Both the position numbers and the translations under genes were made by a program. Under the pieces are notes generated by a model. The model did no database searches. It saw only the letters and a program-made list of their open reading frames with translations, and was not told where the DNA came from. From an uncultured Caulobacterales bacterium (GTDB lineage Bacteria; Pseudomonadota; Alphaproteobacteria; Caulobacterales; Maricaulaceae), in NCBI GenBank assembly GCA_937924355.1, contig CALDSY010000186.1, positions 1 through 64,000 on the forward strand: a DNA stretch of 64,000 nt. Reading direction: 5' to 3'. Positions within the stretch are counted from its first letter, which is position 1, and each line of letters begins with the position of its first letter. Below are positions 46,507 through 48,752 of the stretch, piece after piece.

Positions 46507-48567
46507 TTAGTTTCCACCACCTCTGGCGGCTCTGAATTTTTGCATCGCCAGAAATTCATTGAATGCCATAGCCCCGTCCTTATCAAAGTCGGCGCGTTTT
46601 GCCGGACCATCATTCCAGGCATTACGTAACCAACCGGGCATTTCTGCGGGGCTGAGCTTTCCGTCCATATCCGCATCGGCAAATCCATATAGCTGCCGTA
46701 TCTCAAATCCCATCGGATCATGTAAAACTTTGTCGTGAGTCTCATCTGTCCAACGAAAAAAGAAGCTCCCATACAGCATCTCATCATGAGACTGCAGGCC
46801 CCAAGGAACATTTCTATCGGGATCGGGATTGGCGAAATTCTTTTCGGAATTATCGTAGATCGTGGTGTGAATAAGTTTTGATCCCGCCGGGACCTTCAAC
46901 GAATTTTTCAAGGGATAATTGTGCTGCCAATTAAAATCATATTTGGGCACAGATAATAATGTTTCCTGACGGCCGTCCGGGTAGCGAATATCGAATTTGC
47001 TGGATTTCCCTCGATAATGCGCATGCGGGAACAGAAAGTAGATTTCAGCATTATGATCAAATTCGAAATAGGCGGTTTCCTGGTGATCGCTACTATTTGC
47101 AGGAATATTGATCCGCGGGTTCAGAATAACTTGCTGTCGCAAGACATGTTCCGGTTTCTTGTCATGGAAATAAAGACCCACGCGCGTCACATCTGTGGCG
47201 GGCTTCCCGGATGGTGTGTAATGAAATTGGAAGCGAAATTCTCCGCCTTTTTCCACCAGAATTCCTGTGTTATCCGGATACTCATAGGACGGCACACCGG
47301 GCGCAAATCCATATAGAAAATTATCAAATACACTTTCCTGATCGCCTTCACCGGGCGCCGTCACTTCTGAGGATGAACCCAGTAGAACATGGTGGACAAC
47401 AGATTTGTCACCCGGAAGAACCGTAACGGCGCGCACCCATTTGTCCTCGGAGGACGGATTTGCGACGGACGGAAACTGATAATCGACGATTCCTGTGGCG
47501 GGAACGTCAAACGCCGGGGCTTCGACAATGAGATCAGGTTTCCCGAGGGGCCATTCCACGGCATCGTTTTCGCGCTCGGCCAAAGGATCCGGTCCCTCGC
47601 CCCGCGGCGCGCCTGCCTCAATCCAGCGCACTAGCAATTGTTGATCTTCTACACTTAGATCTCGCGCCTGAAGAAATTCACCCACATGAGGGTCAGCCGA
47701 CCATGGCGGCATTCTTTTAGTCCGCACCACTTCCCGGATCATGGGCGCAAACCCCTCGACCTCTTCATAATTGGTCATAGACCAAGGTCCGATGCCGCCG
47801 TCTTGGTGACAGGACGCACAATTTTTTTCCAAAATAGGCGCAATGGTTTTTGAATAACTAATTTGGGCGTGAGCTTCGCGGTCCAGCCCGTCTTTCAAAT
47901 TGACGATACAGCCCTTGGTCGGGCGTGCTTTGGTTGCCACGGCTTCGCCGGCCAGTACGGCATTCAGGGCGTCCTTGAGATAATGTTCTTTCGCTTCATT
48001 CTTCTGGCGCTCATAGGTAATACGATCATTGACGGGGCCGCGATAAACGATTTCCCAGCCGGCAGGATTTATCACCAAGACTTCAGCTGTGCGCGTTATG
48101 CCCATTGACGCCGCGATGAGCTGGGAGTCGTCTTTCATGATTGGAATATCAATCCCGTACTCGGCGGCCTCTTGTGCGACTTCGGCGCGCGTATCATTGG
48201 GATTGGCGTTGAGCATCAGAAATTTAATGCCCTTGCTTTCGAATTCATCGCGAACAGCCCTGTAATCATTGGCCAAATTTCGAACGATCGGACATCCATT
48301 TCCCTGGACCATTATAACGACAGCATTGGCATCGTAATTATAGAAAAGTTCCTGCGCTTTGCCTGTGTGATCCAACAGCATAAAATTATCGACCAGGTTA
48401 TCGCTCATATCCGGTATGGTCTTGGTCGCGAAATTATGGGCCGTCTTTGTGACAGTAGGCTCGGCATTAGAATTTTCATGGACGGTCGGGGATTCGCCGC
48501 CGCTATCCGCGCAAGCTGCCAAAACAAGAAAGGCGCTTAATGAGAAAAGAAATCTACGAAATGACAT
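46507..48567 (-). CDS. Redoxin-cytochrome c-copper monooxygenase-EF-hand fusion lipoprotein
   Basis: Lipoprotein signal (VLAAC, Cys19), then a thioredoxin-fold redoxin domain (about residues 48-222) with GNGCPIVR (Cys92) and a second cysteine in KGCIVNL (Cys220). A heme c site CASCH follows (250-254) with Met ligand candidate in RMPPW. Residues about 345-605 resemble ascorbate-dependent copper type II monooxygenases (PHM-like) with His-His (392-393), His449, HAH (515/517) and Met597 matching copper ligands. Two EF-hand loops (DADMDGKLSPAE, DFDKDGAMAFNE) end it. Probable periplasmic oxidoreductase; the substrate is unknown. Confidence 0.88.
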   Translation of the reverse strand: MSFRRFLFSLSAFLVLAACADSGGESPTVHENSNAEPTVTKTAHNFATKTIPDMSDNLVDNFMLLDHTGKAQELFYNYDANAVVIMVQGNGCPIVRNLANDYRAVRDEFESKGIKFLMLNANPNDTRAEVAQEAAEYGIDIPIMKDDSQLIAASMGITRTAEVLVINPAGWEIVYRGPVNDRITYERQKNEAKEHYLKDALNAVLAGEAVATKARPTKGCIVNLKDGLDREAHAQISYSKTIAPILEKNCASCHQDGGIGPWSMTNYEEVEGFAPMIREVVRTKRMPPWSADPHVGEFLQARDLSVEDQQLLVRWIEAGAPRGEGPDPLAERENDAVEWPLGKPDLIVEAPAFDVPATGIVDYQFPSVANPSSEDKWVRAVTVLPGDKSVVHHVLLGSSSEVTAPGEGDQESVFDNFLYGFAPGVPSYEYPDNTGILVEKGGEFRFQFHYTPSGKPATDVTRVGLYFHDKKPEHVLRQQVILNPRINIPANSSDHQETAYFEFDHNAEIYFLFPHAHYRGKSSKFDIRYPDGRQETLLSVPKYDFNWQHNYPLKNSLKVPAGSKLIHTTIYDNSEKNFANPDPDRNVPWGLQSHDEMLYGSFFFRWTDETHDKVLHDPMGFEIRQLYGFADADMDGKLSPAEMPGWLRNAWNDGPAKRADFDKDGAMAFNEFLAMQKFRAARGGGN

Positions 48568-48675: not shown

Positions 48676-48752
<77 letters not shown>

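Follow-up and report, generated by a model that had tools for sequence, protein, structure and literature searches.

What does a protein do that carries a redoxin, a heme c site, a copper domain of PHM/DBH type and EF-hands in one chain, and which of these modules belong together? PHM and DBH are textbook animal enzymes that depend on ascorbate, with PHM finishing peptide hormones and DBH making noradrenaline. The question is raised here by a gene for a 686-aa protein, lying directly downstream of a tRNA-Asp gene (48676-48752) in the window, that is, in the whole stretch of 64,000 nucleotides that was analyzed (Table 1). A lipoprotein signal is followed, in N- to C-terminal order, by redoxin, cytochrome c, copper domain and EF-hands. 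The presence of all four modules in one polypeptide, as claimed in an earlier note on this DNA, is borne out by Pfam, fold, profile and conservation, with the assignments of copper domain, heme domain and EF-hands (two 12-residue DxDxDG....E loops) resting on fold, profile and conservation, as their Pfam scores alone are below cut-off. The residues named in that note (C92, C220, CASCH at 250-254, H392/H393, H449, H515/H517 and M597) are all found at the positions it gave. Cysteines occur only at residues 19, 92, 220, 250 and 253. The sequence LVLAAC19 has the form of a lipobox, indicating a probable bacterial lipoprotein, and Cys19 is kept solely in the six alphaproteobacterial members of a 29-member alignment.

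Table 1. Positions of the gene, its modules and predicted ligands in the window, and of neighboring genes in homologous loci (L numbers, own coordinates)
Feature	Position	Strand	Basis or remark
Whole gene, 686-aa lipoprotein	46507..48567	(-)	ORF with ATG start; orthologs; dN 0.057 with saturated dS
Lipobox LAAC, residues 16-19, predicted lipidated Cys19	48511..48522	(-)	Sequence
Redoxin domain, residues 55-225	47893..48405	(-)	PF08534 2.2e-9; PDB 2cvb, 2ywi, 3u5r by sequence and fold
Cys92 of redoxin (GNGCPIV)	48292..48294	(-)	Cys in 16/16 redoxin-bearing members; lost in L047, L054
Cys220 of redoxin	47908..47910	(-)	Cys in 16/16 redoxin-bearing members; GC motif aligned in 2cvb, 2ywi, 3u5r
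Cytochrome c domain, residues 234-330	47578..47868	(-)	PF13442 E 3e-4; 25/29 members match at E<=0.01
CASCH heme c attachment motif, residues 250-254	47806..47820	(-)	C250, C253, H254 invariant
Met286 of RMPPW, probable distal heme ligand	47710..47712	(-)	Invariant in 29, nearly all further loci; role inferred
PHM/DBH-like two-lobed copper domain, residues 340-612	46732..47550	(-)	Foldseek 1phm TM(target) 0.69; profile to 4zel 1.7e-5
His392-His393, predicted CuH ligands	47389..47394	(-)	Invariant; aligned to DBH HH
His449, predicted third CuH ligand	47221..47223	(-)	Invariant; aligned to DBH His
His515-x-His517, predicted CuM ligands	47017..47025	(-)	Invariant; aligned to DBH HTH
Met597, predicted CuM ligand	46777..46779	(-)	Invariant; final residue of PF03712 match; outside DBH sequence alignment
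EF-hand loop 1, residues 631-642, DADMDGKLSPAE	46642..46677	(-)	Canonical DxDxDG....E; below Pfam cut-off alone
EF-hand loop 2, residues 660-671, DFDKDGAMAFNE	46555..46590	(-)	Canonical DxDxDG....E; below Pfam cut-off alone
MMPL/RND exporter genes	L005 8047-10350; L007 7823-10384		Directly downstream of redoxin-heme-copper gene
Secreted protein loci	L088 295-1377; also L074-L078, L080-L083, L085-L087, L089, L091		Conserved, beside heme-copper gene

Codon comparison with a 91% identical homolog (L002) points to strong purifying selection on the gene (dN 0.057, dS saturated), with 68/22/338 differences per codon position. GC and GC3 of the gene are unremarkable and like those of its neighbors, and horizontal transfer, judged by composition, was rejected. 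Homologs are found in Planctomycetota, Acidobacteriota, Gemmatimonadota and Alphaproteobacteria. The layout is not unique to the source genome and is indeed familiar in environmental bacteria, as had been said of parts of it before. Relatives that match over the full length come from the same genus (L030-L032) and from Kordiimonas; those from Planctomycetota share about 30% identity. The 29 aligned homologs, which span about 30-91% identity, were gathered largely by sequence patterns, KYDFNWQH among them, and 48 further loci were gathered by profile to offset this pattern bias; as the profile was made from the first 29 homologs, the test with the 48 loci is less biased than the patterns, yet not unbiased. 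No weight was given to the invariant PKYDFNWQH motif, because KYDFNWQH was a search pattern and the relatives recovered by profile show NWQR or other versions of it. Two contigs filed under Acidimicrobiia and Cyanobacteria (L026 and L027) are nested within an Acidobacteriota clade in the tree and are likely mis-binned.

With respect to abundance, we observe copper-domain profile matches in 10 of 150 genomes of the order to which the source genome belongs, in 3 of 349 genomes in the phylum and in 43 of 119 genomes of the planctomycete phylum sample. The richest genomes hold 24, 23, 14 and 14 matches, a few of these being fragments of one split gene, and such paralog expansion (up to 24 per genome) would suit a family of enzymes that has diversified in substrate. 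Searches of PHROGs and of a plasmid collection gave no match for the 686-aa protein. Full-text literature searches for the architecture or for bacterial PHM-like enzymes returned no description of the family, and, judged by titles and abstracts, none of the papers naming the Pfam or InterPro entries deals with a bacterial enzyme. The protein is genuine, conserved and uncharacterized, and its family is large; this large family, a core of heme and copper domains and an auxiliary place for the redoxin are what the present analysis adds to the earlier note.

The predicted heme c and copper domains are the conserved core of this family and an almost obligatory pair, since the ligand sets of both hold in the 29 homologs as well as in 43 of the 47 full-copper-site segments from profile-found loci, where CxxCH plus Met is in frame. 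In two of the four exceptions (L085 and L087), the heme motif closely precedes the copper domain but lies in a different frame, through a frameshift or an assembly error; of the remaining two, one runs into a contig end and the other (L103) is a CX4CH variant without the Met. The Pfam score of the heme domain (PF13442) is 21.4 bits, below the cut-off of 27, and the domain has the features of a class I cytochrome c, a CxxCH site (C250, C253, H254) and a candidate distal Met (M286). The latter had been missed in the earlier note; it belongs to an RMPPW motif that presumably falls where the Cytochrome_CBB3 model carries its Met-Pro motif. The domain thus resembles class I cytochromes c (Cytochrome_CBB3, PF13442) in CxxCH and in an MP motif further along that aligns with the region of the Met ligand, but it is short, has an invariant MPPW and almost always adjoins a copper domain. 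Two loci (L094 and L104) keep the heme motif and have lost the copper ligands, perhaps as a non-copper sub-branch, so some members must serve a different function. The source genome encodes a heme c maturation system (CcmF_C, 1.3e-79) and also a Sco protein.

An AlphaFold2 model built from the window protein and 28 homologs (mean pLDDT 83.3, pTM 0.80) has both PHM lobes in the copper domain. PHM chains head the Foldseek matches in the PDB (E about 1e-14 to 1e-13), with 1phm aligned over 292 columns of its 305-residue chain (TM(target) 0.69) and DBH (4zel) listed too. The two-lobed PHM geometry, named in the earlier note as one of the points on which its claim would turn, is therefore seen in the model. 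A full-length profile against the PDB was swamped by calmodulin, and the copper domain was for this reason searched alone; its best match is DBH 4zel (1.7e-5), with HH, H, HxH and Q548 aligned. The six putative copper ligands are invariant in the 29 aligned homologs, and their alignment to PHM and DBH suggests that they cluster in space. Against a copper oxygenase stand the PF03712 score of 20.5 bits, below the cut-off of 23, the failure of the Pfam search of the 686-aa protein to match the N-terminal lobe (PF01082), and the absence of PHM/DBH disulfides, no Cys being found in residues 340-612.

Compared with PHM (1phm, 1sdw), the copper domain shares the two-lobed double jelly-roll and, in the same order, a three-His CuH site and a CuM site of HxH plus Met, but it belongs to a bacterial protein that has no copper-domain Cys, no peptide-lyase domain and none of the PHM peptide-binding residues, and that has a fused heme c. 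The peptide-binding residues of PHM (Arg240, Asn316 and Tyr318, with positions placed relative to the ligands) correspond to F513, Y599 and S601 here and vary across the family, which makes a glycine-extended peptide an improbable substrate. DBH (4zel) is the best sequence-profile relative in the PDB, with ligands in register; unlike DBH, the bacterial envelope protein has neither DOMON (no match in the Pfam search of the 686-aa protein) nor the DBH disulfides, and it has a fused cytochrome c where DBH uses external ascorbate. On predicted fold and aligned ligands, we place the protein in the PHM/DBH copper type II monooxygenase superfamily, as a heme-fused bacterial branch that is PHM/DBH-like by anatomy. 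It is not PHM or DBH proper, as the PHM substrate residues, the disulfides and DOMON are absent.

Animal PHM and DBH draw their electrons from ascorbate. We propose, with a probability of roughly one half, that the bacterial protein is an O2-dependent PHM-type monooxygenase in which the fused cytochrome c takes the place of ascorbate as electron donor. Anchored in the envelope, and probably facing the periplasm, the lipoprotein would act as a non-coupled two-copper monooxygenase of PHM/DBH type on a small or hydrophobic molecule and not on a C-terminal-glycine peptide. CuM (H515, H517, M597) would bind and activate O2, and CuH (H392, H393, H449) would supply the second electron. In non-coupled binuclear copper enzymes (PAM, DBM), O2 is bound at one copper held by two His and one Met (PMC10371230). 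The class I cytochrome c (CASCH and M286) would pass electrons from a respiratory or periplasmic pool to CuH; this is the most economical reading of a His/Met cytochrome c that directly precedes the copper domain in almost every member. The EF-hands may serve as calcium-dependent structural or surface modules. What the analysis shows directly is the sequence, the conserved ligands, the match in fold and the pairing of heme and copper domains; metal content, electron route, chemistry and class of substrate are inferred from these.

The redoxin domain is recognized far beyond chance (PF08534, 37.7 bits, cut-off 26.6), and its part of the model matches 3u5r, 2ywi and 2cvb in Foldseek (TM(target) 0.77-0.81). 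These uncharacterized thioredoxin-like proteins have CPxx and GC cysteines in register with the redoxin domain but are stand-alone proteins, whereas the redoxin here is fused to the heme-copper core. It lacks the peroxiredoxin PxxxTxxC, with I85 and G89 at the P and T positions ahead of C92; the CxxC of thioredoxin and ResA, with C92-P-I-V95 and V or A at position 95 in 16/16; and the Sco CxxxC with distal His, C92 being followed by PIVR and no second Cys lying close to it. The absence of all three motifs disfavors peroxidase and copper-delivery roles. This bears on the view that the copper domain serves to store, chaperone or sense copper, with heme and redoxin setting the copper redox state and the copper being handed on or detoxified. 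A redoxin beside a copper site recalls copper delivery of Sco/TlpA type, and the lipoprotein location and the EF-hands, taken as metal handling, would also suit such a role. We nevertheless consider it unlikely, as a CuM site of HxH plus Met and a separate CuH trio are exactly PHM/DBH-like across phyla, the Sco CxxxC is missing from the redoxin, the neighbors of the core gene in the loci examined include no recurrent gene for a copper transporter or copper chaperone, and up to 24 paralogs per genome would be odd for a store.

The distribution of the redoxin bears on a further possibility, a version of the intramolecular electron route suggested in the earlier note: that it is a dedicated thiol donor and that electrons run from thiol to heme to copper along one intramolecular wire. 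Redoxin, heme and copper domains are fused in Planctomycetota and Alphaproteobacteria, and in four loci where they are unfused (L072, L095, L100, L105) a stand-alone redoxin gene adjoins the core gene. Furthermore, both cysteines are retained or lost jointly: in L047 and L054, whose genomes belong to the order of the source genome, the redoxin-like domain lacks both (D and T/A instead), suggesting that C92 and C220 act as a pair, probably as a reversible disulfide. Since every heme and copper ligand is intact in these two loci, however, the thiols appear dispensable for the core. In many members the protein contains no redoxin, the Acidobacteriota and Gemmatimonadota members of the 29-member alignment having the heme and copper domains only, and a thiol facing a single heme leaves a two-to-one electron mismatch. 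In the copper-domain tree, the redoxin label calls for four or more gain or loss events on branches that are well supported, with L047 and L054 scored as redoxin-less because their Cys are gone. By sequence comparison, redoxin and EF-hands are accessories that are missing from many lineages, and the redoxin is probably auxiliary, since it stays with the core, either fused to it or encoded by an adjacent gene. A continuous redoxin-heme-copper chain is thus improbable, whereas electron transfer between heme and copper is suggested by the almost constant co-occurrence of the two domains. Our guess is that the thiols of this auxiliary module either maintain the copper sites in a reduced or loaded state or protect the enzyme.

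Peroxide can escape from copper monooxygenases, and it is conceivable that the redoxin removes H2O2 from uncoupled copper turnover, or even that the whole protein is mainly an antioxidant. Although Redoxin and AhpC-TSA Pfam matches are in line with this, I85 and G89 in place of the P and T of PxxxTxxC, together with nearest solved relatives that are uncharacterized thioredoxin-like proteins, make it quite improbable. A copper-free, PNGase F-like protein of the double jelly-roll clan that binds sugar or lipid and uses its histidines for another metal would share its Pfam clan and fold with PHM (PMC8812541), but with PHM and DBH as the closest structures and an exact, invariant set of six ligands we regard this as very unlikely.

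Gene neighborhoods differ between branches. In the planctomycete-type loci L005, L007, L008, L009, L010, L012 and L018, the next gene on the same strand encodes an MMPL/RND exporter (HAE3 type); L007 and L009 are near-identical, leaving six independent cases among the seven. Counting only fused planctomycete-type loci whose downstream sequence is available, the exporter is present in 7/9 (none at L013 and L020). Its place beside the planctomycete copies is a faint hint that these act on, or produce, a hydrophobic molecule. At 15 loci of three genomes from Acidobacteriota and Gemmatimonadota (those of L014, L022 and L028), the core gene adjoins a gene for a secreted protein that matches nothing in Pfam or NCBIfam. 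Neither neighbor adjoins the window copy, and the source genome beyond the window gene has only weak RND matches. The window gene does not share its neighborhood with Kordiimonas, and a neighboring PP-loop ATPase gene is common to L032 only; the surroundings of the window copy are thus uninformative.

The PHM family is widespread in eukaryotes according to a 2022 structural survey (PMC8812541). We tentatively suggest, at slightly less than even confidence, that a large bacterial PHM/DBH branch, found in Planctomycetota, Acidobacteriota, Gemmatimonadota and some Alphaproteobacteria, has replaced ascorbate by a covalently joined cytochrome c, that some of its members have added thiol and calcium modules, and that it constitutes a self-contained, heme-wired class of copper monooxygenases with new substrates. 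If this is true, a two-copper site hard-wired to heme c would offer a direct test of electron delivery to CuH, a step that has long been argued over, and, with up to 24 copies per genome, soil and marine bacteria would hold a large untapped set of oxygenases.
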